Positions 1 to 45,173 of a stretch of DNA of 64,000 nt are shown here, piece by piece. A program made the translations under genes and the position numbers. Under the pieces are notes generated by a model. The model was given only the letters and a program-made list of their open reading frames with translations. It ran no database searches and was not told where the DNA came from. The stretch covers positions 62,001 through 126,000 of the forward strand of contig NZ_JOCF01000002.1 of assembly GCF_000720635.1 (NCBI RefSeq), written 5' to 3'. The stretch's first letter is position 1. Each line of letters begins with the position of its first letter. This DNA is from Streptomyces sp. NRRL WC-3742. Its GTDB lineage: Bacteria; Actinomycetota; Actinomycetes; Streptomycetales; Streptomycetaceae.

Positions 1-1059
1 GAAGCCGGCCCCGTCGTCGCCCCGGTAGCGGTGGGCGTACAGCCCGCCGCCGCAGGAGCGCACCACCGGGCAGGCGCGGCAGGTGGCGCTGAGCCCGGCC
101 AGGCCGGACTGGCGCGCGGCGATGCCGGGATGGCGGGCGAGGTCGTCGATGCTGTGCCGGAAGACGTCGAGGCCCGTGACGGGGGCCCCGTCGTAGGCGG
201 TCTTGAGGCTGTCGGCCTGCTCGAAGGTGCCGTCCGTCTCGACCACGGCGAGGTCGGAGGGTTCGAGGCCGAGCGATTCGGTGAGGCTGGAGAGCCCGCG
301 CAGGGTCCGGTGGACGGACTCGAAGGTGCGGACGGCGAACGGGCGCCCGTCGGTTTCCCACAGCCTGTGGACAGCGAGCAGCCACTGCGCGTACGGGGTG
401 GGGCCCCGGCCGGAGGGACGTTTCGGCGGCTCGTCCCAGGTGGCGTGCGGGAGCAGGAAGTCGACGGCGGGGGGCTCGAGTTCGGCGAGGGCCCGGTAGA
501 CGGCCGCCGGGTCGTTCTCGACGTCGATCGTGCACAGCAGGCCCGCGTACAGGTGCCGGTAGGCGGGCTCGCGCAGCAGGGCGACGGCCTTCAGGACCTG
601 GGGGTGGCTGGTGCGCCCGTCGGCGAAGCGGCGGTGGCGGTCGTTGGCGGCACGGTCGCCGTCGAGCGAGACTCCGACCTTGACGTCCAGCTCGGCGAAC
701 AGGTCGCAGAACGCCCTGCCGAGCAGCACACCGTTGGTGTGGATGCGCAGGTCGAGGGTGCAGCCGCCCGGGAGCGCGGCGCGCAGGGTCTCGGCGGCGC
801 GGCGCAACCGGTCCGGGCCGGCGAGCAGGGGTTCTCCCCCGTGCAGGACGACCCGGACGGCGGACAGCCGGTGGGCGGCCGCGTGCTCGCCGATGCGCTC
901 GGCGGTCCTGGCCAGGACCTCGTCGGCGATGACCTTCGGTCGGGCGCGCCAGCTGGTGTCGGCGTGCTCGTACACGTAGCAGTGGTCGCAGGCGAGGTCG
1001 CAACGGCTGTGCATCTTGACCACGAATTGCGTCAGCGGAAGCGGAATTCGTGTCGGCAT
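1..1059 (-). CDS. fxsB: Radical SAM/SPASM peptide maturase, FxsB family (second copy, cut by window edge)
   Basis: The reading frame starts at ATG 1059 and is still open at base 1, giving 353 residues without the C-terminus. Near the start (about residues 20-28) is the CxxxCxxC iron-sulfur motif CDLACDHC followed by YVYEHADTSW, the hallmark of FxsB enzymes. Near the cut end are the Cys residues of a SPASM/twitch cluster (CRACPVVRSCGGGLYAHRY). Members of the family use S-adenosylmethionine and a [4Fe-4S] cluster to cross-link the Phe of the FxSxx motif in FxsA to a neighbouring residue (cyclophane, or triceptide, formation). The canonical precursor gene ends 56 bp upstream, so this copy most likely acts on that peptide. 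The start has only a weak ribosome site, so coupling to the precursor is possible. Family assignment is firm; the exact modification is inferred. Confidence 0.93.
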   Translation of the reverse strand, partial: MPTRIPLPLTQFVVKMHSRCDLACDHCYVYEHADTSWRARPKVIADEVLARTAERIGEHAAAHRLSAVRVVLHGGEPLLAGPDRLRRAAETLRAALPGGCTLDLRIHTNGVLLGRAFCDLFAELDVKVGVSLDGDRAANDRHRRFADGRTSHPQVLKAVALLREPAYRHLYAGLLCTIDVENDPAAVYRALAELEPPAVDFLLPHATWDEPPKRPSGRGPTPYAQWLLAVHRLWETDGRPFAVRTFESVHRTLRGLSSLTESLGLEPSDLAVVETDGTFEQADSLKTAYDGAPVTGLDVFRHSIDDLARHPGIAARQSGLAGLSATCRACPVVRSCGGGLYAHRYRGDDGAGF

Positions 1060-1115
1060 GGACCTGGTGGTGATCCGGTCTGAGTTCGGCCTGGGTTCTT
1101 TCGGTGCCGGGCCGG

Positions 1116-1301
1116 TCAGATCGAGGAGTTGAAGGCCGCGACGGACACGAGGCCGGAGTCCGCACCGGGGAGCGCGCGCTGCAACCGGTTGGCGAGTTCC
1201 TCCGCGCCGAGTGCGGCGAGGTCGGCGAGGGACGGGCGCTCCGGCGTCTCCTGAGTGTCAGTGAGGTTGCCGGCCGGCCTGGTGCTGGTTACCGGAGTCA
1301 T
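1116..1301 (-). CDS. fxsA: FxSxx-COOH ribosomal peptide precursor FxsA, canonical
   Basis: This 61-residue peptide ends in FNSSI immediately before the stop, matching the defining FxSxx-COOH terminus. ATG 1301 was chosen because AAGGA lies 7 bases upstream; upstream in-frame starts have no ribosome site. The leader is acidic and contains a short amphipathic stretch (SLADLAALGAEELANRLQRAL, about residues 24-44), as expected of a leader recognised by the maturase; the C-terminal 10-15 residues would be the modified core. Known FxsB chemistry would link Phe57 to Ser59. It sits directly upstream of one radical SAM maturase and 300 bp downstream of the HExxH hydroxylase. Confidence 0.93.
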   Translation of the reverse strand: MTPVTSTRPAGNLTDTQETPERPSLADLAALGAEELANRLQRALPGADSGLVSVAAFNSSI

Positions 1302-1601
1302 GTTCGTTTCCTTAGGCGCGGTTAGGACCTGCCGAGTGCGGGTAGACCACCCGGTTGCGACCAAATGTAGTGCCCAAGCGGACTCCGCGCGGCACCTTGC
1401 CGCCCCAAGTTCGTCCGCTCGGCCCGTCCACACCATACGGCGGCGCGCTAAAGGCCCGGAATTCACCCGTTCAGCGGTCGCGCACTCCACCCGGACGCGC
1501 GCCGAAGGCCGTTGACCGGGCCTGGTGTTCGATTCCACCCCATGTGCCGTCTCGTCCCCCCGCCCGCCCGGGCCGCCGGCCTCGTCGCCGCGCCCGCACG
1601 G
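1302..1601. other. Intergenic region upstream of fxsA
   Basis: There is no convincing gene in these 300 bases. On the minus strand a TACATT hexamer at 1364-1369 could be a -10 element giving the precursor gene its own promoter, about 60 bases upstream of its ATG; I see no good -35 to go with it. A separate promoter would let the precursor be made in excess over the enzymes. Confidence 0.35.
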
Positions 1602-2684
1602 TCACCGGTTCGGGGCCGAATCATCGAGTGCCCCGGCGGCGCGCATCAGCTCCTCGGTGAATTCCCGCCCCTGAACGGTGAGTTCGCCGGATTCCAGCAG
1701 AGTTCGCCCGGCCGCCGAGGTGTGCCCCCGCCACAGCGCGAACTCCCGGGCCGCACGTACGGGTTCGCTCACTCCGGCCGCCGATTCGGCCGCCCAGAAG
1801 TCGGCGACGCCGAGGTGCGCGTACGTCCCCTGGAGCAGCGCCCCGACCGGGCGCAGATCCGGCCGCCAGGGGGCGTGGTAGACGGCGGCGCCGTTGGGCC
1901 GGTGCAGGGGCACCAGGTCCAGCAGGGCGCCGAGTTGGACGTGCAGGAACTCGTGCACCAGGGCCAGTGCCAACAGGACGGGCTCCGCCGGGAGCGAGGC
2001 CGCCACGGCCCCGTACGCCCGCCGTGCGGCCGCGCTGACCGCCTCCCCGCCGGGCGCCGGACGCAGCGGCACGATCACCCCGACGCAGGCCGCCACGGAC
2101 CGTGCGTGCCACGGGTGCCGGCGCACCAGGATCCGCCACGCCTCCTCCAACTGCTCGCGCCACTCCATGAGTTCGGAAGCACTCAACGGCCCGGCCGGCG
2201 GGCGCCCGTAGTCGACCAGGCGCGGCCCCGCGTGCTCCACGCGGGGCCGCCAGCGCAGCCCGTCGCACTCCAGCTCCACGACCTCCCCCGCCCCCTCGGC
2301 CGCGAACTCGCCCAGCACGCCCAGCGGTACGGCCTCCCCGGCCGCCAGGCCCCGCAGGCAGTCGGCCGCCCAGGCGTCCAACTCCGGCCGCAGCAGCACC
2401 GCCTCCCACCGCGCCCGGTCCCCGCGCTGCAGCTCGCACAACCGGGCGTACGCCTCACGGAACCCCTCGTCCTGCGGCGCCCTGCGGCGCAGCGCCAGCA
2501 GCAGCAGCGCCCGCTTGCTCAACTGCCCGGCCCGCAGCAGCCGTACGGCCTCCGGCCCGCCCCGCGCGCCCGCGATGGCCCGGAACAGTGCCCGGTCCAC
2601 GCCGTGCCGGGGCAGCCCGTCCGCCCCGCGCGCGCCCGGTACCCCGGTCACCGATACCGCCGCCGCCTCGTCCGTCTCCGCCAC
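1602..2684 (-). CDS. HExxH-motif peptide-modifying enzyme (putative alpha-ketoglutarate/Fe(II) peptide beta-hydroxylase)
   Basis: The 360-residue product carries HEFLH at about residues 244-248, with nearby YHAPWRPDLRPVGALLQG and YAHLGVADFW, the layout of the HExxH motif family found beside FxsB maturases. Members of this family have been described as non-heme iron, alpha-ketoglutarate-dependent hydroxylases of RiPP precursors; that role is taken from the family. GTG 2684 is preferred because GAGAGGA precedes it by six bases; a GTG 30 bases upstream lacks such a site. It lies in the same orientation between the two maturase genes, so it probably adds a hydroxyl to one of the two precursors. 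The N-terminal half is Arg/Ala/Leu-rich helical sequence without recognisable motifs. Confidence 0.88.
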   Translation of the reverse strand: MAETDEAAAVSVTGVPGARGADGLPRHGVDRALFRAIAGARGGPEAVRLLRAGQLSKRALLLLALRRRAPQDEGFREAYARLCELQRGDRARWEAVLLRPELDAWAADCLRGLAAGEAVPLGVLGEFAAEGAGEVVELECDGLRWRPRVEHAGPRLVDYGRPPAGPLSASELMEWREQLEEAWRILVRRHPWHARSVAACVGVIVPLRPAPGGEAVSAAARRAYGAVAASLPAEPVLLALALVHEFLHVQLGALLDLVPLHRPNGAAVYHAPWRPDLRPVGALLQGTYAHLGVADFWAAESAAGVSEPVRAAREFALWRGHTSAAGRTLLESGELTVQGREFTEELMRAAGALDDSAPNR

Positions 2685-2822
2685 CGGTTGTCCTCTCTCG
2701 TGTCCGGCCCGCACCGGCCGGCCCGCCGCTGCCAGCCCGCAGTCTCCCCACCGATCGGCGGATCAGCCGGTCCGACACCGCTCATGACCCGAACGGGCGA
2801 GCGGGCCCTCGGCGCGGCCCCG

Positions 2823-2888
2823 GGCCGACCTGCCGCCTTCACCCGGCCGACCTGCCGATTCCACCCGGCCGACCTGCCGCTTTCAGCC
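2823..2888. repeat. 22-bp tandem repeat, three copies
   Basis: Three consecutive 22-base units beginning GGCCGACCTGCCG (2823-2844, 2845-2866, 2867-2888) differ at only a few positions, and a fourth unit starts at 2889. They fill the gap between the radical SAM gene (ends 2907) and the HExxH gene. They could be replication slippage or protein-binding sites in the operon transcript; function is unknown. Confidence 0.85.
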
Positions 2889-2906
2889 GGCCGAGGCGGC
2901 GGTGCG

Positions 2907-4145
2907 TCAGTCGACGCGGGCCAGGGCCCCCGCGCCCACCAGCCCCGCGACCCCGGCCCGCAGCCGCCCGGCGATGTGCCGGATCAGCCGGTCGAGGTCC
3001 GCGCAGTACACCGACGGGTTCCCGAAGCCCCCCGCCCCCGCGTACCGGTGCGCGTACAGCCCGCCGCCGCACACCCGCGCCAGCGGGCACCGGCCGCACA
3101 CCCGGGCCAGCCCCGCCATCCCGTGCTGCCGCGCCCGGAACGCCGGGTGCGCCGCCGCCGCGTCGAACCCGTGCCGCCACACGTCCAGGCCCGTGGCGGC
3201 CGCGCCCTCGTACGCGACCTTGAGGCTGTCCGCCTGTTCGATGGCCCCGTCCGCCTCGACCACCACCAGGTCCACCGGCGCCAGCCCGACCGCCTCGCTG
3301 GCCCCCCGGCCGCCCAGCAGCAGCACGGACAGCTCCTCGAACAGCCGCACCCCGGTCTCCCGCCGCGGCGCGTCGTACCAGCGGTCGAAGGCTTCGATCA
3401 GCCAGTCCCCGTACGGCGCCGGACCGCCCCCGCAGCCGCTCGGCGGCGCGCCCGGCGGCTCCCGGCGGCCCACCCCCGGCGGCGGCGCCTCCCAGGTGGC
3501 GTGGGGCAGCAGCAGGTCGAGCCGGGGCGGCCGGAACTCGACGAGCGCCTCGTAGGTCGCCACCGGGTCGGCCGCGAGGTCGACGACGCACAGCAGCCCG
3601 GCGAACAGCTCCCGGTGCTGCTCGGAGCCCAGCAGCCGCACGGCCGCCGCCGTCCGGGCCCAGCTGCCGCCGCCGGAGGGCAGCAGCCGGTGCCGGTCGT
3701 GCTGCACCGGTGTCCCGTCCAGCGAGACGCCGACCGCCACCCGGTGGCGGTGCAGCACGTCGAACAGCGCCGGATCGTCCAGCAGCCGCAGCCCGTTGGT
3801 CTGCAGGCTGAACCGCACCCGGGGTCCGGCACCGGCCAACTCCCTTAACAGCGCGTCCAGATGGGCGGCGCCGACGAGCAGCGGCTCGCCGCCGTGCAGC
3901 ACCACGGTGACCTCGTCGAGCCCGTGCCGCTCGGCGTGCTCGCCGATGCGCCGCGCGGTGCGGCGCACCGTCGGCAGCTCCATCCGGCGCGGGCGGTCGC
4001 GCCAGCTCTGGTCGGCCGCCTCGTACACGTAGCAGTAGGAGCAGGCGAGGTTGCACCGACTGTGGATCTTCAGCAGGAACTGCCGGAACGGCACCATGGC
4101 GGGGAGCCTAGTCGCCTCCGGAAGTCCCTGCTGACCATCCGTCAC
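2907..4145 (-). CDS. fxsB: Radical SAM/SPASM peptide maturase FxsB (first copy)
   Basis: The 412-residue product has the cluster motif CNLACSYC followed by YVYEAADQSW, the HGGEPLL and SLDGTP motifs of radical SAM barrels, and a C-terminal SPASM-like set of Cys (VCGRCPLARVCGGGLYAHRY, then NPSVYC). It should bind SAM and [4Fe-4S] clusters and form a carbon-carbon cross-link in an FxsA core. GTG 4145 lies six bases after the FxsT stop, suggesting translational coupling; ATG 4097 (MVPFRQFLLK) is an alternative that matches the other copy's N-terminus better. It is clearly diverged from the copy at 1-1059, so the two were probably not duplicated recently and may have different precursor preferences. 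Confidence 0.95.
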   Translation of the reverse strand: MTDGQQGLPEATRLPAMVPFRQFLLKIHSRCNLACSYCYVYEAADQSWRDRPRRMELPTVRRTARRIGEHAERHGLDEVTVVLHGGEPLLVGAAHLDALLRELAGAGPRVRFSLQTNGLRLLDDPALFDVLHRHRVAVGVSLDGTPVQHDRHRLLPSGGGSWARTAAAVRLLGSEQHRELFAGLLCVVDLAADPVATYEALVEFRPPRLDLLLPHATWEAPPPGVGRREPPGAPPSGCGGGPAPYGDWLIEAFDRWYDAPRRETGVRLFEELSVLLLGGRGASEAVGLAPVDLVVVEADGAIEQADSLKVAYEGAAATGLDVWRHGFDAAAAHPAFRARQHGMAGLARVCGRCPLARVCGGGLYAHRYAGAGGFGNPSVYCADLDRLIRHIAGRLRAGVAGLVGAGALARVD

Positions 4146-4151
4146 CGTCCG

Positions 4152-7100
4152 TCACACGTGCGGGGGCTCCACGTCGGAGTCGAGCCTGGTCCCCGCCCTG
4201 ACCGCCTTCGTCGTCGGGTGCTCGTCCCCGAGGGTGGCCCTCGCCCGCCGGATGCAGTCCGCCCGCAGCTCCGCGGCCCGGTCCGCGTCGCCGACCGCCG
4301 CGAGCGACAGCGCGAGGTTGGACTTGATGCCGATGGAGTCGTAGTGGTCGGAGCCGAGCGCCTCGACCATCATCGGTGCCGCCTCCGTCTCCAGGGCCAG
4401 CGCGGCCTGCGGCTCGCCGGTGACGGCGAGGTCGTTTGCGTGGTTCATCATCGCGATCGGGATGTACAGGTGGTGCTCCCCGAGTACGGCGCGGAACTGG
4501 GTGAGCGTGCGCCGGGAGAGGTCCCTGGCCTCCTCCAGCCGCCCGGCCAGGCGCAGGTAGACGGAGAGGTTGTTGGCGCCGGCCAGCGTCACCGGGTGGT
4601 CCTCGCCGAGGTAGTCGCGGTAGCGGGCGAGGGCGCGTTCGGCGAGCGGGATGGCCCGGTCGGTGTCGCCGAGCGCGTTGAAGTCGCTGGCGAGGTTGGT
4701 GGCGGCGGCCAGGGTGTCCGGGTGCTCGGGGCCGTTGATGTCGAGGTAGCGCCGGTAGATGTCCTCGTCGATCTCCAGCGCCTCGTGGTAGCGGCCGTCC
4801 CGGCGCAGGGCGACGGCGAGGTTCTTGCGGGCGCGCAGGGTGTCGGTGTGGTTGTCGCCGATGGTCTGCTGGTAGGTGCGCACCGTCTCCTCGAGCAGGT
4901 CCAGCGCCTCGCGCAGCCGCCCGGTCTCGCGCAGGTCCCGGGCGTAGTTGGAGGCGGAGGAGAGCGCGTACAGGCTCTGCGCGCCGAGGGCGTCGCGCTG
5001 CTGGAGGTAGTTGCTGCGGTGGCGCTCCAGGGCGGCCCGGCGGTCCCCGGCGAGGTAGTCGGAGACGGCCAGGTTGTTGGTGATCATCAGGGTGCGCGGG
5101 TGGTCGGGGCCCAGGGTGCGCCGGGCGGCGTCCAGGGTGCGCCGGTCGAGCGCGCGGGCCTCGTCGTAGCGGCCGAGGAAGCGCAGGTCGGCGCCGAGGC
5201 TGTTGGCGACGGCGAGGGTGTGCGAGTGCTCCGGGCCCAGGGTCTCGGTGAAGCGCTCCAGGATGTCCCGGTCCATCTCGTACGCCTCCTGGAGGGCGCC
5301 CTGGGAGCGGCGGATGTTGCTGAGCTGGGTGCGCAGCATCAGGGTCTGGGCGTCGTTGTCGACGTCGAAGCCCGGCCCGCCGTAGCCGTCCTGGCGCCAG
5401 TGCCGCAGGGTGCGCTCGGCGAGTTCGCGCCCGGCCTCGTGGAGGCTGCGCTTCCACTGGTAGCGGACGGAGTCGATGATCCACTGGCGGACGTCCTCGT
5501 CGGCGCTGTCCACGGCGCCGGAGGGCCACAGGTGGGGCAGGAGTTCGGAGTACTCGGCCCAGTAGGTCGGCACGTCCGGGTCGCCGGGGTTGGCGGCGGC
5601 CAGCGCGGCGTGGACGACCTCGCGCAGTTCGGCCTGCCGGGCGTCGCCGACCTGGTCGCGCAGGACGGCCTGGACGAGCCGGTGCACGGTGATCGTCTCG
5701 CTGCCCTGGTCGGTTCGGGCCAGCCCGAACCGGTTGATGGCGCGCAGCAACTCGCCGATGGCGAGCTTGTCGCGCGGAGCCCTGGGCGGCAGCTTGAGGG
5801 CGCGGACGACGGCCCGGCTGTAGAGCAGCCGCATCGGGATGGCGTCGGGGCCGAGGAAGGCGCAGATCTCCAGGATCTGGGCGGCCGGGGCGTTCATCCG
5901 GCGCAGCTCCTCGACGGAGATGCGCAGCGTCGCGGCGGCGGAGTGCGGGTAGTCGGCGGCGTGCAGCGCGGTGCGCTCCAGCATCTCGGTGAGGGCGCGG
6001 TCGAGTTCGCCGAGGTAGTCGGCGATGCGCATCGGCGTCTCCTGGAGCCAGACGGCGGCCTGGCCGACGGCCAGCGGCAGGTCGCCGAGCCGGGAGGCGA
6101 TCTGTTCGGCGTCCTCGGCGCTGAGGCCGTGGTTGAAGCGGCGCAGCAGCCGCACGCTCTCCTCGCGCAGGAACACGTCGACCTCGACGAGCCCGGCGTG
6201 CTTGGACCAGCCCTGGTTGCGGGAGGTGATCAGCACGTGCCCGCCGCTGGCCCCGGCGGGCAGCCAGGGCGCCAGCTCCTCGGGCGTGCTGGCGTTGTCG
6301 AACACCAGCAGCCAACGGGAGTGGGGCTGGCCGCGCCGCAGCGCGTCGAGCACGGCGGCGGCGGTGTGGGCGACGTCGTCGCTGCCGGGCACGCCCAACC
6401 GGGGTGCCAGCTTGGCGAGTTCGGCAGGGATGTTCGCCGGGTCCTCGGCGGGCACCCACCACACCACGTCGTAGGCGGCCTTGAAGCGGTGGGCGTACTC
6501 GCCGGCGATCTCGGACTTGCCGGCGCCGCCGAGGCCGTACAGGACCTGGCTGCGGACGGCGGCGGGGCCGCCGGTGAAGCGGTTGCGCAGCAGTTCCAGC
6601 ACCCGGCCCCGCCCTATGAACGAGGCGTTGCGGGAGCGGACTTCGAGCACCTTCGGGGCGTCGCCGGGGAAGCGGGCGGGGGCGAGGAACTCGCCGCTGT
6701 CGCCGTCCAAGACCCGGTTGGTGCCGGGGGCCTGGCCGAACTCGTGGTACAGCTGCGCCTCGGCGTGCACGGCGGCGGAGCGGGTGAGGTCGGGCACGAC
6801 GTGGCCGGCGAAGGGCCGGGGCACCGGGTCGTCCGAGTCCTGGAGCCTGAGCGCGACCAACGTCGGTGCGCCGGTGGACAGTTCGCCGCCGTACAGGTGC
6901 TGCCAGACCTCGGCGGCGCGGGGCAGCGCGGTGTACTCGGGCGAGATCAGGGCGAGCAGCCGCCCCTGGCCCCCGGCGGGCCCGGCGACCTCGGGGGGCC
7001 TGGGGCCGGAGTACGGGTCGGCGGCGTTGTGCAGGGAGGTCTGGTAGCCGAAGCGGGTGAGGGTGGCGGCCGCCCACTCGGCCCACATCCGGTTCTCGGG

Positions 7101-8162
7101 CGCGTAGCTGACGAAGACCTGCCGGGGCACGGCGCGGGCGGAGCGCAGGTAGGCGCCGTAGAGCCGCCGCCTGGTCTCGCCGCCGAGCGGGCGCAGGTTG
7201 CGCACCCGCCCGTCGGTGATCCAACCGGCCAGCCGCTCGAAGGCGTTGAGGAGGCTGCGGGCCTCCTGCGGCCGGTCGGCGACGGTGGCGGGCACCTCCT
7301 CGTAGGCGTAGAACGGCTTGTACGGCACCTCGACGTCGGCCCAGTAGGCGGCCCGGCGCTCGCCGCCGAGCCAGCGGCCGAGGTAGGGCGCGAAGGCTTC
7401 GCGGGCGAAGTCCCGTCCGGCTTCGAGGCGTTCCTGTTCGGCGTCCTCCACGCGCATGGGCACGGGCATCACGCGGATGGCCCGTTCCTCGGTGTCGGCG
7501 ATGGTGTGGGCCGCGGCGACGCCGCCGCGGATGTTCTGGGCGTTGAAGGTGAAGCAGTCGACGACGGTGTCGGGCATCAGCACGGTGCAGATGCCGGAGG
7601 TGTCGCTGACCCCGGTGCGGCTGTCGATGAGCACGTAGTCGTAGTTGCGGGCCCAGCGTTCGCGCAGTTCGCGCAGGAACTCCCCGCCCCGGATGTCGCG
7701 GCCGTGGTAGAAGCTGCGCCAGTTGAAGCTGGTGACGGCGGCGGCGTAGGCGGCGTTCTGGCGGCCGGCGGGCAGGAAGTCGAGCCGGCCGCCGGGCGGC
7801 AGGTCGAGGGCGAGCCCGCAGATGTAGTCGTCCAGGCGTCCGGGCACGTCCAGCCACTCGGCCGGGGACAGGCCCGTCGGCCCGGAGGCGGAGGGCAGCG
7901 CCTGCCTGACGTAGGAGCGCAGCAGGTCGATCAGGCCGTCCGTGGAGTGCAGTTCGGGGTCGACGAGCAGCGGGTGGTAGTAGCGGTGGAGGCCGGGCGC
8001 CTCCAGGTCCCAGTCGACGACGAGGACCCGCAGCCCGCGGCTGGCGAGGATCCAGCCGACGTTGGCGAGGGCCATGGTGCGGCCGGTGCCGCCCTTGAAG
8101 GAGTAGAACGTGACGACCGATCCCGGTCCGCGCTCCGGCCGTACGTCGGGCTCAGTGATCAT
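4152..8162 (-). CDS. fxsT: FxSxx-COOH system tetratricopeptide protein FxsT (MinD-like ATPase, TIR-like, NB-ARC, TPR)
   Basis: The 1336-residue product is a mosaic. Residues about 14-60 hold a deviant Walker A (FYSFKGGTGRTM) and VLVVDWDLEAPGL, typical of MinD/CobQ-like ATPases. Around residue 345 a TIR-like segment begins (RQVFVSYAPENRMWAEW). Around 535-620 is an NB-ARC/STAND P-loop (YGLGGAGKSE) with Walker B-like WLLVFDNAS. From about 900 to the end are TPR repeats (many L..LG....A......L units). It starts inside the end of fxsC (11-base overlap) with GGAG nine bases upstream. FxsT proteins accompany FxSxx peptides, but their role is not established; the architecture resembles STAND immune or signalling switches, so sensing the mature peptide or a stimulus is an inference. 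Confidence 0.93.
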   Translation of the reverse strand: MITEPDVRPERGPGSVVTFYSFKGGTGRTMALANVGWILASRGLRVLVVDWDLEAPGLHRYYHPLLVDPELHSTDGLIDLLRSYVRQALPSASGPTGLSPAEWLDVPGRLDDYICGLALDLPPGGRLDFLPAGRQNAAYAAAVTSFNWRSFYHGRDIRGGEFLRELRERWARNYDYVLIDSRTGVSDTSGICTVLMPDTVVDCFTFNAQNIRGGVAAAHTIADTEERAIRVMPVPMRVEDAEQERLEAGRDFAREAFAPYLGRWLGGERRAAYWADVEVPYKPFYAYEEVPATVADRPQEARSLLNAFERLAGWITDGRVRNLRPLGGETRRRLYGAYLRSARAVPRQVFVSYAPENRMWAEWAAATLTRFGYQTSLHNAADPYSGPRPPEVAGPAGGQGRLLALISPEYTALPRAAEVWQHLYGGELSTGAPTLVALRLQDSDDPVPRPFAGHVVPDLTRSAAVHAEAQLYHEFGQAPGTNRVLDGDSGEFLAPARFPGDAPKVLEVRSRNASFIGRGRVLELLRNRFTGGPAAVRSQVLYGLGGAGKSEIAGEYAHRFKAAYDVVWWVPAEDPANIPAELAKLAPRLGVPGSDDVAHTAAAVLDALRRGQPHSRWLLVFDNASTPEELAPWLPAGASGGHVLITSRNQGWSKHAGLVEVDVFLREESVRLLRRFNHGLSAEDAEQIASRLGDLPLAVGQAAVWLQETPMRIADYLGELDRALTEMLERTALHAADYPHSAAATLRISVEELRRMNAPAAQILEICAFLGPDAIPMRLLYSRAVVRALKLPPRAPRDKLAIGELLRAINRFGLARTDQGSETITVHRLVQAVLRDQVGDARQAELREVVHAALAAANPGDPDVPTYWAEYSELLPHLWPSGAVDSADEDVRQWIIDSVRYQWKRSLHEAGRELAERTLRHWRQDGYGGPGFDVDNDAQTLMLRTQLSNIRRSQGALQEAYEMDRDILERFTETLGPEHSHTLAVANSLGADLRFLGRYDEARALDRRTLDAARRTLGPDHPRTLMITNNLAVSDYLAGDRRAALERHRSNYLQQRDALGAQSLYALSSASNYARDLRETGRLREALDLLEETVRTYQQTIGDNHTDTLRARKNLAVALRRDGRYHEALEIDEDIYRRYLDINGPEHPDTLAAATNLASDFNALGDTDRAIPLAERALARYRDYLGEDHPVTLAGANNLSVYLRLAGRLEEARDLSRRTLTQFRAVLGEHHLYIPIAMMNHANDLAVTGEPQAALALETEAAPMMVEALGSDHYDSIGIKSNLALSLAAVGDADRAAELRADCIRRARATLGDEHPTTKAVRAGTRLDSDVEPPHV

Positions 8163-9603
8163 CGCCGTGGTCTCCGTTCAGCGGGACGCCGTCGTCCTGT
8201 CGGGGCCGGCGCTGGCCGGGCAGGACGGGTGGGAAGACCGGGCCTGGGGCCTGGTCCGGGGTGAGCCGTACGAAGGGGTCCGGGCGCTGGCCGGGAGGGC
8301 CGGGTTTGGGCCCGAAGGGGATGGTCAGCCCGGGCATGTCGGGGCCGCCGGGGCCGAAGCCGAAGGAGTCGCCGTCGTCCCAGTCGAAGTTGTCGTCCAT
8401 GAGCTTGTTCTGGGCGACGGTCACCATGATGTCGAGGTCGCGGTCGAAGCTCTCCCGCTTCACCTGGACGCGGAAGAGGTGCTCGGGGTCGCTGCGGCGC
8501 AGCCAGTTGCGGCGGAAGACGCCGCGCACACCGGTCCACAGGGCCTCGCGTGTCGGGCCTTCGACGGGGTCGTGGTCGCCGCTGGGCACGAGCACGCCGG
8601 TGACGGGGTGGTTCTGGTCGTCGTACTCGCGCAGCGCCTCGCGGTAGCGCTCGCCGGCGGCCACCCACGGGTCCACCAGCAGCACGCTGACCTGGCTGTC
8701 CTCGCGGGCCTGGTCGAGCTTGGCGCCGAGGCCGACGCCGATCTCCTCCAGGGTGGTGGTGTGCCCGGCCGCGGTGATCACCTGCTGGGCGCGGGCGGCG
8801 AGCGAGGGGCGCGTCGGCGGGTGGTAGGGCGCCCAGTCCCAGGGCCGGGGGCCGTGGTGGGCGCCGTTCTCGGGGGCGGCCTCGGAGGCCCGGCCGGCGG
8901 CGATGAACAGCCGCACCATGCCGGGACTGTCGGAGGGCTCCAGGGCGGGCGCGGTGGGCGGCGGGGGCGCGGGGAAGTAGCCGCGGACGGCACCGAGGTC
9001 GAACTCCCTCAGCTCGCCGAGTCGGCGTTCGGCGGCGCCCTTGATCCGCCCGGCGACGACCCGTACGACCGTGCGGTACGCCTCGCCGCTGGGGTCGGTG
9101 CGCAGCAGGGCGCGCAGCCCGTGCCGGGCGTACGCCTCCCCCATGTCCGGCTGGGCCCACTGGATCTTGGTGACCTCCTCGTGCAGCTCGCCGGGCGCGA
9201 CGGGCTCCCAGAGCACCGGGATCAGCGCGGGCACGTGCTCGCCGTGCTGCTCGTGGTGGCGGCGCACCCGGCCGCGGAAGGCCGTCCACTCCTTGCCGCA
9301 GTAGAGGCTGGCGAAGTAGGCGGGCGAGTAGAGCGCGACCAGGGTGCGGCAGCGCCCGAGCATTCGGGCCAGTTCCTGGGCCCAGTCGTCGCCGACGAAC
9401 AGCCGTTCGGTGTCGCGGTAGGCGAGCTCCTCGGCGCGGGCGGCCGGCTGGGCGCGGCCGAGTTCGTCGCGCAGGTCGTTGAAGAACTGGTCGACGAAGG
9501 CGTCCTCGGCCTCGAAGTCCCGACGCGCGTAGCTGAAGAAGAAGTACGGCCGTTGGTCCCTCTGGTCCGCCGGTTCCGACATCTGCCGCTGATCCCGCTC
9601 CAT
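8152..9603 (-). CDS. fxsC: TIR-like protein FxsC
   Basis: The 483-residue product begins with a TIR-like fold (YFFFSYARRDF at about residues 18-28, then VDQFFNDLRDEL and TLVALYSPAYFASLYCGKEW), which is the signature of FxsC proteins of FxSxx-COOH loci. The C-terminal half has VSVLLVDPWVAAGERYREAL and a Pro/Gly-rich tail. ATG 9603 (or the adjacent GTG 9606) is chosen because GGGGGAA lies just upstream; the longer frame has no ribosome site. No enzymatic activity is known for the family; whether the TIR-like part cleaves NAD is untested. The gene is translationally coupled to fxsT. Confidence 0.92.
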   Translation of the reverse strand: MERDQRQMSEPADQRDQRPYFFFSYARRDFEAEDAFVDQFFNDLRDELGRAQPAARAEELAYRDTERLFVGDDWAQELARMLGRCRTLVALYSPAYFASLYCGKEWTAFRGRVRRHHEQHGEHVPALIPVLWEPVAPGELHEEVTKIQWAQPDMGEAYARHGLRALLRTDPSGEAYRTVVRVVAGRIKGAAERRLGELREFDLGAVRGYFPAPPPPTAPALEPSDSPGMVRLFIAAGRASEAAPENGAHHGPRPWDWAPYHPPTRPSLAARAQQVITAAGHTTTLEEIGVGLGAKLDQAREDSQVSVLLVDPWVAAGERYREALREYDDQNHPVTGVLVPSGDHDPVEGPTREALWTGVRGVFRRNWLRRSDPEHLFRVQVKRESFDRDLDIMVTVAQNKLMDDNFDWDDGDSFGFGPGGPDMPGLTIPFGPKPGPPGQRPDPFVRLTPDQAPGPVFPPVLPGQRRPRQDDGVPLNGDHGDDH

Positions 9604-9765
9604 CACCTGTTCCCCCGAGTCCGACGGTGCCGCGACGGCGCTGGTTTCACGGCGCTGGTTTCTTACCCAGCATGTCGTGAACTCCACCAGTACTGCAGGG
9701 AAGTTGGCGGATTCCCCTGCCTTCGGTGGTTTAACCGGGGGTCAGGCGCACGCCCGCGCTCCGGA

Positions 9766-9788
9766 GCGCTCCCGGCGCACGGGAGCGC
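9766..9788 (-). terminator. Hairpin after the first precursor gene
   Basis: GCGCTCCCG and CGGGAGCGC form a perfect 9-bp stem with a 5-base loop, 34 bases after the stop of the precursor at 9822-10025 and upstream of fxsC. A partial terminator here would keep precursor mRNA more abundant than enzyme mRNA. It has no U-run, so strength is uncertain. Confidence 0.5.
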
Positions 9789-9821
9789 GCCCAGGAGCGT
9801 GGAGTGCCGCGGGGGCGTGGG

Positions 9822-10025
9822 TCAGTGGTCGAGCGCCGAGTGGTCGAGCGCCGACTGGAACGCGGCCAGCGGCTCGGCGCCGGGCGTCAGGGCGTCCGCG
9901 ACGACCCGGCGCAGCAGCTCGCCGAGGACGGTGTCGGGAAGGGCGTCGAGTTCGTCGAGCGGCAGGGCGGCTACGTCGACCAGGTCGGAGCAGAGTCCAA
10001 CGGTATCGGCACCGGTGACGCCCAT
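9822..10025 (-). CDS. FxsA-like RiPP precursor with duplicated C-terminus
   Basis: This 67-residue peptide has the acidic leader style of FxsA (DVAALPLDELDALPDTVLGELL) and ends AAFQSALDHSALDH. FQSAL fits FxSxx, but instead of stopping there it runs on through DH and a second SALDH encoded by an exact 15-base tandem repeat. GAGGGA six bases before ATG 10025 supports the start. It is the first gene of the minus-strand Fxs operon, 218 bp ahead of fxsC. I read it as a second precursor with a non-canonical extended core. It could instead be a degenerate relic; the intact frame, ribosome site and operon position argue against that. Confidence 0.75.
   Translation of the reverse strand: MGVTGADTVGLCSDLVDVAALPLDELDALPDTVLGELLRRVVADALTPGAEPLAAFQSALDHSALDH
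9825..9854. repeat. Exact 15-bp tandem duplication at the precursor C-terminus
   Basis: GTGGTCGAGCGCCGA occurs twice without a mismatch (9825-9839 and 9840-9854), encoding Ser-Ala-Leu-Asp-His twice on the minus strand directly before the stop codon. Codons are identical in both copies, so the duplication looks recent. Confidence 0.95.
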
Positions 10026-10058
10026 CAGTCCCTCACTCGATCGTGTCAGCGCTGCGGG

Positions 10059-10106
10059 TCACCGATCGGTGAAAAGGAAACCACCGGGGTCCGCAGGCGG
10101 ATACTA
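10059..10106 (-). promoter_or_regulatory. Putative promoter and palindromic operator of the Fxs operon
   Basis: On the minus strand TAGTAT (10106-10101) fits the actinobacterial -10 consensus TAnnnT. Between it and the precursor start at 10025 lies a perfect 14-base palindrome, TCACCGATCGGTGA (10059-10072), which would fall just after the transcription start, a usual place for a repressor site. No dedicated regulator gene was seen in the operon. Confidence 0.45.
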
Positions 10107-10155
10107 CACCCGGACAGTGACGGGCCATCAGTTATCGAGACCGCCGCGCCCGAGA

Positions 10156-10881
10156 CTACGGGCAGAGCCGCTCCACCCGCCAGCCGCCCGGGGCCGCCGG
10201 GTCGGCGAGGTAGCGGAGCCGGTCGTGGAGGCGGTTCTCCCGCCCCTGCCAGAACTCGACGCTGGCCGGAACCACCCGGTACCCGCCCCAGAAGGGCGGG
10301 ACGGGCACGCCCTCGCCCTCCGGGTAGCGGCGCTCGAGTTCGGCGTAGCGCCGCTCCAGCTCCTCCCGGCCCTCGACGGGGCTGGACTGCTCGCTGGCCC
10401 AGGCGCCGAGCTGGGAGCCGTGCGGGCGGGTGCGGAAGTACGCGGCGGTCTCGTCCCGGCCGACCTTCTCGACCCGGCCCTGGACGATGACCTGGCGGGC
10501 GAGCACGATCCACGGGAAGAGCAGGGCGGCGTGCGGGTTGGCGGCGAGCTCGGAGCCCTTGCGGGAGCCGTAGTTGGTGAAGAAGACGAAGCCGCGCGCG
10601 TCGTACCCCTTGAGCAGGACGGTGCGCGAGCTGGGCCGGCCCTCGGCGTCGGCGGTGGAGAGCACCATCGCGTTGGCCTCCTCCACCCCGGCGTCGGCCG
10701 CCTCCAGGAACCAGCGGGTGAACTGGGCGATCGGCTCGGGCGCGAGCTGCTCCTCGACCAGGCCCTCGTGCGTGTAGTGCTTGCGCATCACGGTGAGGTC
10801 CGGCCCGGGGCGGGCCTCGCCGGGCGTGGTCCGGGGGGCGGGGCTCGGGGGCGTCGACTGGGCGCGTTCCGGGGTCTGCAC
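10156..10881 (-). CDS. pdxH: Pyridoxamine 5'-phosphate oxidase
   Basis: The 241-residue product oxidises pyridoxine or pyridoxamine 5'-phosphate to pyridoxal 5'-phosphate with FMN, in cytosolic vitamin B6 synthesis and salvage. The family signatures are visible: [26 protein letters not shown] in the FMN region, [13 protein letters not shown], and the C-terminal [13 protein letters not shown]. Length is slightly above the usual 210-220 because of a Pro-rich N-terminal extension; a shorter start at MRKHY (near 10788) is possible. It is divergent from the citrate synthase gene. Confidence 0.96.
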
Positions 10882-42328: not shown

Positions 42329-43551
42329 CAGCTCCGGACTTCGAGGACCTGCTGCGTGAGCTCACGCCGCAGGTCCTCGGCACGCTGGTACGCCGCTACG
42401 GGCAGTTCGAGGGCTGCGAGGACGCCGTGCAGGAGGCCGTCCTCGCCGCCACCGTGCAGTGGCCCGCCGAGGGCGTGCCGGGCAGTCCGCGCGGCTGGCT
42501 GGTGACGGTCGCCTCCCGCCGGTACGTCGACCAGCTGCGCAGCGACCACGCGCGCCGCGAGCGGGAGGCGGCGACGGCCGCCGCCGAGGTGGTGCCCGAG
42601 GAGGTACCGGACCGGGACGACACCCTGCTCCTGCTCTTCCTGTGCTGCCACCCGACGCTCACCGCCGCCTCCCAGACCGCCCTGACCCTGCGGGCGGTCG
42701 GCGGCCTGACCACGGCCGAGATCGCCCGGGCCTTCCTGGTGCCGGAGGCGACGATGGCGGCCCGGATCAGCCGCGCCAAGCAGCGCATCAGGGCCGCCGG
42801 CCGCACCTTCGGCCCGCCGGAGGGCGCCGAGCGGGAGGAGCGGCTGCGGGTCGTCCTCCAGGTGCTCTACCTGATCTTCAACGAGGGCTACACCGCCTCC
42901 TCCGGCGAACTCCTGCACCGCCCCGACCTCGCCCGCGAGGCGATCCGGCTGACCAGGGCCGTCCACGCCCAGTTGCCGCAGGACGGGGAGGTGAGCGGGC
43001 TCCTCGCCCTGATGCTGCTCACCCACGCCCGGTGGGAGGCCCGCACGACGGCCGACGGCGGCCTGGTGCCGCTGGACGAGCAGGACCGGGCGCGGTGGGA
43101 CGCGGCGATGCTCGAGGAGGGGATGGGGCTGGTCAAGGCGTCGCTGGCGGGGCCGCGGCTCGGCCCGTACCTGCTCCAGGCCGCCATCGCCGCCACCCAC
43201 GCCGACGCCCCCACGGCCGCCGACACCGACTGGCGGCAGGTGCACGCGCTCTACCTGGTCCTGGAACGCCTCGCGCCCAACCCGATGGTGACCCTCAACC
43301 GGGCGATCGCCCTCGCCGAGGTCGAGGGGCCCCGGGTGGGGCTGACGGTGCTGGCCTCCCTGGACGAGGACCCCCGGCTGGCCGGGCACCACCGGCTGCT
43401 GTCCGTCCGGGCGCACCTGCTGGAGAAGGCGGGCGACGCCGTGGGGGCGTACGACCACTACCGGCGGGCGGCGCGGGCCACCGACAGCCTCGCCGAGCGG
43501 CGCTTCCTGGAGGCCCGGGCGGGGCGGGTACGGCCTGCCGCCTCGGGCTGA
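42325..43551 (+). CDS. ECF42-type sigma factor with C-terminal TPR-like extension
   Basis: The 408-residue product has sigma region 2 (VQEAVLAATVQWPAEGVPGSPRGW) and region 4 (LRAVGGLTTAEIARAFLVPEATMAARISRAKQRI) in the first 170 residues, then a 230-residue helical extension beginning LQVLYLIFNEGY, typical of ECF42. This group has no classical anti-sigma factor; the extension is required for activity in studied members. It should direct RNA polymerase to its own DGPF gene promoter. Confidence 0.95.
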   Translation: MTAPDFEDLLRELTPQVLGTLVRRYGQFEGCEDAVQEAVLAATVQWPAEGVPGSPRGWLVTVASRRYVDQLRSDHARREREAATAAAEVVPEEVPDRDDTLLLLFLCCHPTLTAASQTALTLRAVGGLTTAEIARAFLVPEATMAARISRAKQRIRAAGRTFGPPEGAEREERLRVVLQVLYLIFNEGYTASSGELLHRPDLAREAIRLTRAVHAQLPQDGEVSGLLALMLLTHARWEARTTADGGLVPLDEQDRARWDAAMLEEGMGLVKASLAGPRLGPYLLQAAIAATHADAPTAADTDWRQVHALYLVLERLAPNPMVTLNRAIALAEVEGPRVGLTVLASLDEDPRLAGHHRLLSVRAHLLEKAGDAVGAYDHYRRAARATDSLAERRFLEARAGRVRPAASG

Positions 43552-43587
43552 ACCGTCCCGCCGGCCTCAGGCCGAACCGCCGAGTCG

Positions 43588-44466
43588 TCAGAGTGAACCG
43601 TCCAGCGCCGTACGGAGTTTGGAGCGCAGCAGCCGTACGGCCGGGGAGCTCTGGTCCCGGCGGGCGACCAGGCCCAGCCGGGCGTGGACGGCGGCGTCGG
43701 TCAGCGGCACGGCCCGCAGGCCCGAGCCCCGGGCGGAGGCGGCGCTGAGGACGGCGACGCCCGCGCCGCGCTCGGCCAGGCGCAGCAGGGCGACCGGGGA
43801 GCTGGCGTCGAGGTCCACGCGGGGGCCGAGGCCGAGCTGCGCGCAGGAGCGCTCGTAGGCGGCGCGGATGCCGGTGCCCGGGGAGAGGCAGAGGATCTTC
43901 TCCCCGCGCAGGTCGGCGAGTTGGACGCTCGGCCGGTCGAGGGCGTGCCCGGCGGGGAGGACGGCGGCGATGGGCTCGTCGACCACGACGGTGACCTCCA
44001 GGCCGGCGGCGACCTCCCCTGCGAAGCCGATCAGCGCGAGGTCGAGGGCGCCGCCGAGGACCTGCGTCTGGAGGTGGTCGGGGTGCCCCTCGTGCAGGCT
44101 GAGTTCGATGCCCGGGTGGGTGCGGCCGAGGTCGGCGACGGTGTCCAGGAACGGCGGGATCGAGCAGCCGGTGATCATGCCGAGCCGGACGCGGCCGCGC
44201 ACGGCGTCGGCGAACTCGGCGGCGGTGTGCTGGATCGCGTCGAGCGTGGCGAGGGCGCTCTTGGCCAGCGGCAGCACGGCCTCCCCGGCGGGGGTGAGGC
44301 GGACGTGGCGGCTGGAGCGGTCGAGCAGCTTCTGGCCCAACTCGTGCTCCAGTTTGGCGACCTGGGTGCTGATGCCGGACTGGCTCACATGCAGCCGGGC
44401 GGCCGCAGCGGTGAACGTACCCTCGTCGACGACGGCGGCGAAGTAGCGCAGCTGGTGCATCTCCAT
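43588..44466 (-). CDS. LysR-family transcriptional regulator
   Basis: ATG 44466 (or 44460) gives 292 residues: a winged helix-turn-helix (MHQLRYFAAVVDEGTFTAAAARLHVSQSGISTQVAKLE) and a LysR substrate-binding domain (GRVRLGMITGCSIPP, LALIGFAGE). It is divergent from the SnoaL-like gene, 70 bases away, which is its probable target; the imperfect dyad around ATATCTGGAAATGAT (44464-44478) is a possible binding site. The effector is unknown. Confidence 0.94.
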   Translation of the reverse strand: MEMHQLRYFAAVVDEGTFTAAAARLHVSQSGISTQVAKLEHELGQKLLDRSSRHVRLTPAGEAVLPLAKSALATLDAIQHTAAEFADAVRGRVRLGMITGCSIPPFLDTVADLGRTHPGIELSLHEGHPDHLQTQVLGGALDLALIGFAGEVAAGLEVTVVVDEPIAAVLPAGHALDRPSVQLADLRGEKILCLSPGTGIRAAYERSCAQLGLGPRVDLDASSPVALLRLAERGAGVAVLSAASARGSGLRAVPLTDAAVHARLGLVARRDQSSPAVRLLRSKLRTALDGSL

Positions 44467-44536
44467 ATCTGGAAATGATAGCTGGCATGTGATCCATCTG
44501 TTGGACGGATGATCCAAAGCGTCGAAGAATGGAGGC

Positions 44537-44905
44537 ATGACGACGACGAAGAGTGCACGCGAGCTGGCCGAGACCTACTTCACCGCCTGGGAGGCGGGCG
44601 ACTTCGACACCATCCGGGGCATCCTGGCCGAGGACGTCGACTTCGTCGGCGCCCTCGGAACGGCCTCCGGCATCGAGCAGGCCCTCGGCGGCCTGCGCGG
44701 GCTCGGCCAGGTCCTGGAGAAGATCGACGTGAAGGCGCGGGTCGCCGAGGGCGACGAGGTGATCACCTGGTTCGAACTGCGCACCACCATCGCCGACCCG
44801 GCCCCGACCGCCAACTGGATGCACGTGGAGAACGGCAGGATCACCCGCATCCGCGTGACCTTCGACCCGCGCGGCCTGCTCGCGGGCTTCGAGAAGCGTG
44901 GCTGA
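44537..44905 (+). CDS. SnoaL/NTF2-like protein
   Basis: The 122-residue product has the cone-shaped NTF2-like fold pattern (ARELAETYFTAWEAGDFDTIRGILAEDVDF, then ENGRITRIRVTFDPRGLL). Members include small enzymes and binding proteins; the reaction is not predictable. It ends at a strong terminator. Confidence 0.88.
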   Translation: MTTTKSARELAETYFTAWEAGDFDTIRGILAEDVDFVGALGTASGIEQALGGLRGLGQVLEKIDVKARVAEGDEVITWFELRTTIADPAPTANWMHVENGRITRIRVTFDPRGLLAGFEKRG

Positions 44906-44935
44906 TCGGGCGGAGGAACCCCGGCGAGAGGACCT

Positions 44936-44969
44936 GGAGGGCCTGACCGCGAGCGCGGTCACGCCCTCC
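44936..44969 (+). terminator. Hairpin after SnoaL-like gene
   Basis: Arms 44936-44951 and 44954-44969 (GGAGGGCCTGACCGCG / CGCGGTCACGCCCTCC) pair with one mismatch around two bases. The following 200 bases to the DUF1707 stop hold no gene I can support. Confidence 0.8.
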
Positions 44970-45173
44970 TCGCTTTCGATGCCCCTTTGTTCAACGTCCT
45001 GTCCCTGACGGCGCCCTGTCCCCGTCTCGATGGAATCCCCCGGGCGGGGGAGGCGGGTCGTCCGTGATGCCGAGGCCCGGGCGGCGGGGCCGCCCGTACG
45101 GTCTCGTAGGGGGCCGGGGAGGCCGGGGTGGCCCGTACTGAGCGCGGGGCGCCCCGGCCGTGGGGGCCGGGTC

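Follow-up and report, generated by a model that had tools for sequence, protein, structure and literature searches.

A probable tandem of split and fused FxSxx-COOH systems in Streptomyces sp. NRRL WC-3742

Stand-alone actinobacterial systems that combine an FxSxx precursor peptide, a zincin-like protein, a radical SAM/SPASM enzyme and an AP-ATPase with an inactive ParA-like domain have been described, and the section of the survey that treats them predicts a role of the peptides as toxins or signals (eLife 2020, PMC7159879). Related chemistry has been reported for a radical SAM-HExxH fusion enzyme, which performs cyclophane formation and beta-hydroxylation (Morishita et al., 2024, as cited in a passage of PMC12636437), and for the triceptide maturase MscB, which, according to the relevant part of PMC11002830, forms a cross-link from C4 of Phe to C-beta of Ser at positions i and i + 2. 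Here, we analyze an FxSxx-COOH locus at one end of a 64,000-nt stretch of the Streptomyces sp. NRRL WC-3742 genome (hereafter, the window) that encodes two precursors, FxsA1 and FxsA2, and two maturases. The best explanation, to which we assign a probability of about 0.72, is that two complete systems, separate since ancient times, stand in tandem, namely, a split system (FxsA2-FxsC-FxsT-FxsB2-FxsH) and a fused system (FxsA1-FxsBH followed, at a distance, by FxsC'-FxsT'). The gene content, the catalytic motifs, the lineages, the co-occurrence of FxsA1 with FxsBH and of FxsA2 with FxsB2 and FxsH, and the variation described below were read directly from the sequences.

Two gene sets and their extension past the window edge

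Read from pdxH along the minus strand, the genes of the locus are FxsA2, FxsC, FxsT, FxsB2, FxsH, FxsA1 and FxsB1 (Table 1). The initial annotation had listed this content (two FxsA peptides, two FxsB-type enzymes, an HExxH protein, FxsC and FxsT, all on the minus strand), and each of these genes was matched by an NCBIfam model or by a motif. Its description of the precursors and maturases was borne out as well: FxsA1 ends exactly in FNSSI, FxsA2 has an extended C-terminus with 7 more residues after FQSAL, and the two diverged maturases, FxsB1 and FxsB2, are 51% identical. The better match to the precursor model TIGR04268 is FxsA2 (54.3 bits, compared to 20.9 bits for FxsA1, at a cut-off of 28 bits).

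FxsB1 is the 5' part of a gene that continues beyond the window and encodes an 806-aa fusion protein, FxsBH, in which residues 9-371 form the radical SAM/SPASM domain (577 bits) and residues 604-775 an HExxH domain. Both FxsBH and FxsB2 score above the 370-bit FxsB cut-off, with CxxxCxxC and SPASM intact, and the 806-aa protein with its intact motifs rules out the possibility, raised earlier, that one maturase is truncated, inactive or devoid of its cluster cysteines past the edge. Against the inactivated-extension model NF040587, FxsBH scores 181.5 bits (cut-off 225) and keeps its HExxH motif, so that it does not represent that form. Because FxsBH carries its own intact HExxH domain (167.5 bits, HEFQH), in addition to FxsH (152.8 bits, HEFLH; family cut-off 40 bits), the locus encodes two hydroxylases, which are the only proteins of this family above the cut-off in the entire genome. 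Thus, the hydroxylase that had been proposed initially, FxsH, has an intact motif but is not the only one. The same applies to the proposed single signalling pair: a second pair, FxsC'-FxsT', is encoded on the same strand, some 16 kb downstream from FxsBH (FxsT', G000:C2:39495-43496, 1101 bits; FxsC', 43493-45046, 208 and 130 bits), with a 4 bp overlap. Each system has its own FxsC-FxsT pair, and all four proteins match their families. Taken together, the FxsBH fusion and the second FxsC'-FxsT' pair point to two complete FxSxx systems in tandem. Genome-wide, three FxsC proteins were found, one of them on another contig; further contigs of this genome contain a third FxsC-like (G000:C35:59751-60266) and a third FxsT-like (C55:41431-44949) gene.

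Occurrence and lineages of the two systems

The comparison set consisted of 70 genomes of the genus of the window, and FxsB above the cut-off is present in all of them. FxsBH was found in 69 genomes, in every case adjoining FxsA1 (66 by script and 3 seen separately), and both are missing from G063. Sixteen genomes (15 of the type III defined below, and G063) have FxsA2, FxsB2 and FxsH together, and 53 have none of the three; in G047, a type III genome in which the locus is distributed over two contigs and which was counted once, FxsH and FxsB2 lie on different contigs and the end of FxsA2 is missing. The CxxxCxxC and SPASM motifs are conserved in 69 of 69 FxsBH and in all 16 complete FxsB2 proteins. 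HExxH is conserved in 17 of 17 FxsH and in 64 of 69 FxsBH proteins; it was lost in two, the reading frame departs in one, and two are cut by contig ends. The histidines were lost in L051 and L058 (genomes G059 and G061; HGFQL and REFQR), which are two of the five genomes with an FxsC-FxsT fusion.

These distributions bear on the proposal that one peptide is modified stepwise by the two maturases, which is favored by adjacency only. FxsA1-FxsBH occurs without FxsB2 and FxsH in 53 of the 70 genomes, FxsA2-FxsB2-FxsH occurs without FxsBH in G063, each precursor contains a single FxSxx motif, and three genomes of another genus (G140, G206, G138) have FxsA2-FxsC-FxsT-FxsB2-FxsH in the order of the window without an adjoining FxsBH, with other FxsB relatives elsewhere in the genome. 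Stepwise modification is therefore highly improbable. The other proposal of the initial annotation, two cross-linked and possibly hydroxylated peptides, is in agreement with the family membership and the intact motifs and appears probable.

A tree built from 76 FxsB domains unites the FxsB2 proteins of the genus in one clade (support 98), which is grouped with six split-type loci (99), and groups the FxsBH proteins with six fused-type loci (99). The FxsT tree shows the same split/fused division; the FxsB, FxsT and DNA trees are quick trees with Shimodaira-Hasegawa-like approximate likelihood ratio test (SH-aLRT) support only, and in the FxsT tree (LG+G4) long branches meet. The presence of identical gene families side by side could also be explained by in-place duplication followed by subfunctionalization, yet the two sets stand apart in the FxsB and FxsT trees, each together with relatives from other genera, and both the gene order and the hydroxylase architecture (fused or split) differ. 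This scenario was rejected on the basis of the two trees and is hardly credible.

Both systems recur beyond the genus. FxsB relatives were detected at E <= 1e-30 in 219 of 297 genomes of the family; in this wider search, the 15 best matches after the window's own were FxsB2 proteins from within the genus, followed directly by those of G140, G206 and G138. The arrangement FxsA-FxsBH-FxsC'-FxsT' was observed in G200 and G189 and also in Streptomyces sp. NRRL S-118, where it occupies one scaffold and a split-type system the other, and FxsBH-FxsC'-FxsT' was observed in G137, where no precursor was seen. According to the trees, the split and fused systems belong to separate old lineages, each of which is found without the other adjoining it in another genus. 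A second FxsB gene or fragment was observed in 4 of 49 further loci (L016, L029, L030, L147), and a single maturase is therefore the rule there, as the initial annotation had stated. Among the seven fused-type FxsBH proteins from outside the genus, HExxH is absent in five (L008, L028, L156, L157, L161) and kept in L025, and one was unaligned. The three FxsH proteins of split systems from outside the genus that were examined (L005, L144, L146) keep HExxH.

The initial annotation had treated the locus as one operon, in which two modified peptides would be served by a single shared FxsC-FxsT pair. All genes are co-oriented, FxsT and FxsB2 are separated by 54 bp, FxsC and FxsT overlap, and two mixed genomes indicate that sharing is possible: G063 combines FxsA2-FxsB2-FxsH with FxsC'-FxsT', its sole FxsC and sole FxsT at E <= 1e-100, and G026 combines FxsA1-FxsBH with a slot-type FxsC-FxsT as its sole pair. 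However, a second pair of the fused lineage is present in the genome of the window, FxsA1-FxsBH does without FxsA2, FxsB2 and FxsH in the 53 genomes mentioned above, and the gaps are 300 bp between FxsH and FxsA1 and 218 bp between FxsA2 and FxsC. Moreover, in an alignment of relatives, alignable upstream blocks stand before both FxsA1 and FxsA2, and the block before FxsA1 can be aligned among relatives whose slots are empty, of type II or of type III, including those with an empty slot. One operon with a shared pair is thus rather unlikely.

Several observations weigh against the tandem of two complete systems. The block upstream of FxsA1 has few columns that are invariant over all 17 sequences and is only partly conserved across slot types, and a promoter scan revealed no consensus promoter; since FxsA2 through FxsBH are all on one strand, a single read-through transcript is possible. 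FxsA1 scores below the TIGR04268 cut-off. The coupling of FxsC'-FxsT' to FxsA1-FxsBH is based partly on lineage rather than adjacency: FxsT' was found in all 16 type III genomes, on the same strand downstream within about 16 kb in 11 of them, about 0.9 Mb away in G018, and on a different contig in the remaining four. The loss of HExxH in G059 and G061 indicates that hydroxylation is not indispensable, and the Foldseek matches of FxsC are weak (best E 1.2e-3).

Content of the slot between pdxH and FxsA1

The region between pdxH and FxsA1 is a variable slot. Type I slots are empty (37 genomes), type II slots contain FxsC-FxsT without FxsB2 and FxsH (10 genomes, including G046, in which the contig ends within FxsT), type IIb slots an FxsC-FxsT fusion (5 genomes) and type III slots the complete split operon (16 genomes); one genome has FxsA2-FxsB2-FxsH only (type IV), and one has an unrelated gene. 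The latter (G062, locus L041) has a gene with TPR-like repeats in place of Fxs genes, and because its product is unrelated to FxsC-FxsT it was counted as "other" and not as type IIb.

The slot content does not follow the flanks. Between G015 (type III) and G017 (type II), DNA identity is 98-99% in citA/pdxH and 96-97% in FxsC'/FxsT', compared to 71-82% in FxsC, FxsT, FxsA1 and FxsBH. Between G037 (type II) and G044 (type III), the flanks are 97.7% and FxsBH 95.8% identical in DNA, whereas the FxsT proteins are 59% identical. Overall, FxsT identity is 56-67% between types II and III (120 pairs), compared to 83-98% within type III (105 pairs) and 62-91% within type II (28 pairs). Mapping of the slot state requires 11 changes with the FxsBH tree and 13 with that of the flanks, with G062 still labelled IIb. 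Parts of the locus appear to have been swapped between near-identical flanks, and the slot content appears to have been replaced via recombination in the flanks, with repeated loss explaining part of the pattern.

These observations lead to a tentative and rather doubtful extension, namely, that FxSxx loci might consist of two interchangeable modules, precursor-maturase-hydroxylase and FxsC-FxsT, the latter a two-protein, receptor-effector counterpart of the plant TIR-NB-ARC receptor, which reassort at the swapped slot. Either pair could then recognize the cyclophane core as a generic ligand or brake, with diversification taking place in leaders and maturases. If so, the slot would serve in immunity or discrimination, with a ribosomally synthesized and post-translationally modified peptide (RiPP) as the regulator of the receptor. 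Against reassortment, the strict mixed cases are limited to G026 and G063, since G064 and G031, which have the slot FxsC only, contain further FxsT-like matches (60% full length and 40% partial in G064; 40% partial in G031).

Precursors, predicted mechanism and known relatives

In 66 FxsA1 sequences, the leader is variable and the core near-fixed (mean frequency of the commonest residue 0.61 and 0.96, respectively), with VAAFNSSI in 52 and VAAFQSSI in 8. The cores deviate in L086, L090 and L096 (SPFNSAI, SPFDSAI and ALFNSGI), which are from the three genomes with slot-type FxsC only. FxsA2 stops right after FQS[SA]L in 4 of 16 sequences and is extended by 2 to 7 residues in 12, and extended tails of this type are also present in other genera (e.g., L013, L159). 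Since the tail in the window, DHSALDH, contains an exact 15-bp duplication and the tail length varies, it is most simply viewed as a drifting extension and not as a second core. Ala follows FQS in 9 of 12 tailed and 1 of 4 untailed FxsA2 sequences, counted by eye, a difference that is not significant (Fisher p = 0.12). PflC and PosC trim their own substrates oxidatively, as described in a part of PMC12636437; that the HExxH protein might trim the FxsA2 tail in the same manner is an idea without support, by analogy to these enzymes.

The drift of the tail length and the missing parts in types II and IV could mean that one set is a decaying remnant. The intact motifs, in all 16 complete FxsB2 and all 17 FxsH proteins, and dN/dS values of 0.12-0.22 for FxsA2 and 0.20-0.30 for FxsB2 (overall 0.08-0.49, crude NG86 estimates) argue against decay, which is very unlikely. 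A candidate third precursor, ending in FSSAI, FSSAA or FQSSI, precedes FxsC-FxsT in five type II slots that lack FxsB2 and FxsH (L042, L046, L048, L060, L075; the frame in L060 is doubtful); of the two that were scanned, one had no family match and the other scored below the cut-off.

By comparison with characterized relatives, FxsBH and FxsB2 would each link Phe to the second next residue, Ser (F-N-S for FxsA1, F-Q-S for FxsA2), generating a cyclophane of three residues, and a residue of the peptide would be beta-hydroxylated by the HExxH domain or protein. With less certainty, the matured peptide may be the ligand or brake of FxsT, an NB-ARC/TPR switch, which might act via the TIR domain of FxsC as its output, similar to plant TIR-NB receptors. 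FxsC has a TIR fold with the conserved glutamate that TIR NADase effectors require, and E105 is invariant in 23 of 23 aligned sequences. A sequence comparison of FxsC with the PDB yielded two Bcl-2 matches only (E about 0.01), which we take as chance. We know of no FxSxx peptide with a demonstrated function; there are predictions only.

Table 1. Features of the window and of the gene that crosses its edge (window positions unless a contig or locus is given)
Feature	Position	Strand	Description
Window	G000:C2:62001-126000		Genome 8.7 Mb
FxsBH 5' part (FxsB1)	1..1059	-	Radical SAM/SPASM domain, fused system; TIGR04269 551 bits, cut by window edge
FxsBH full gene	to G000:C2:60639 (L004:8639-11059)	-	806 aa, C-terminal HExxH domain (HEFQH)
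FxsA1	1116..1301	-	61 aa precursor, core VSVAAFNSSI; predicted FxsBH partner
FxsA1 upstream block	1302..1372	-	From alignment; putative own promoter region
FxsH	1602..2681	-	Stand-alone alpha-ketoglutarate (aKG)-HExxH-type peptide beta-hydroxylase, HEFLH; TIGR04267 153 bits
FxsB2	2907..4097	-	Radical SAM/SPASM maturase, split system; CNLACSYC, CGRCPLARVCGGG; 454 bits
FxsT	4152..8162	-	KGGTGR ParA-like ATPase, TIR-like, NB-ARC (GLGGAGKS), TPR repeats; NF040586 969 bits
FxsC	8152..9603	-	N-terminal TIR domain (SPAYFASLYCGKE) and second Rossmann-like domain; 172 and 114 bits
FxsA2	9822..10025	-	67 aa precursor, core AAFQSAL and 7-residue tail DHSALDH; predicted FxsB2/FxsH partner
15-bp exact tandem duplication, fxsA2 end	9825..9854	-	SALDH twice
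FxsA2 upstream region	10026..10140	-	Alignable in relatives; putative split-operon promoter region
pdxH	10156..10881	-	Conserved right border of variable slot

Directly downstream of FxsBH lies an aminoglycoside 3-N-acetyltransferase-like gene (L004:7809-8576; Pfam Antibiotic_NAT, 210 bits), for which all five NCBIfam AAC(3) models score below their curated cut-offs. A histidine kinase and a LuxR-type response regulator (L004:5939-7780) are encoded in the 16-kb stretch that separates FxsBH from FxsC'.

The genus offers ready comparisons, namely, the fused system alone, both systems in tandem, the mixed sets of G063 and G026, and the FxsC-FxsT fusion; the natural mixtures and the fusion add to the interest of the locus. 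With these genomes, the pairing of maturases and precursors can be tested, as can communication between the peptide and the TIR/NB-ARC pair. If there is such communication, RiPP chemistry would be linked to signalling similar to that of nucleotide-binding leucine-rich repeat receptors (NLRs) in bacteria. Tandem FxSxx systems were not found described in the literature searched, which comprised titles and abstract beginnings of open-access articles.

Each of the two systems is of a known kind, and what appears new is their tandem, exchangeable arrangement. MscB (IPR026335) presumably belongs to the FxsB family, and an MscB-like cross-link would be possible for FNS and FQS. Section 24 of PMC7159879 regards the zincin-like protein as a peptidase; a tandem of two systems, swapping and an FxsC-FxsT fusion are all absent from that section. 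ChlB/ChlH are reported to represent fused radical SAM and aKG-HExxH enzymes (Nat. Chem. 2024, as cited in PMC12636437), and FxsBH shares this two-domain architecture (257 bits to ChlB), whereas FxsB2 and FxsH are separate proteins and the substrates here would be FxSxx peptides; relatives by sequence in the PDB are 22nu (HExxH domain, 277 bits), 9gm3 (ChlB) and 8s5f (ChlH). There is also a close likeness to the FxSxx-COOH/FxsB systems of NCBIfam (TIGR04268, TIGR04269, TIGR04276, NF040586, NF040588), which the seven genes of the window match or resemble, with the same partners and the same co-orientation. Compared to these systems, the window combines two adjoining lineages, a fused and a split hydroxylase, and an FxsA2 that extends 7 residues past FxSxx.

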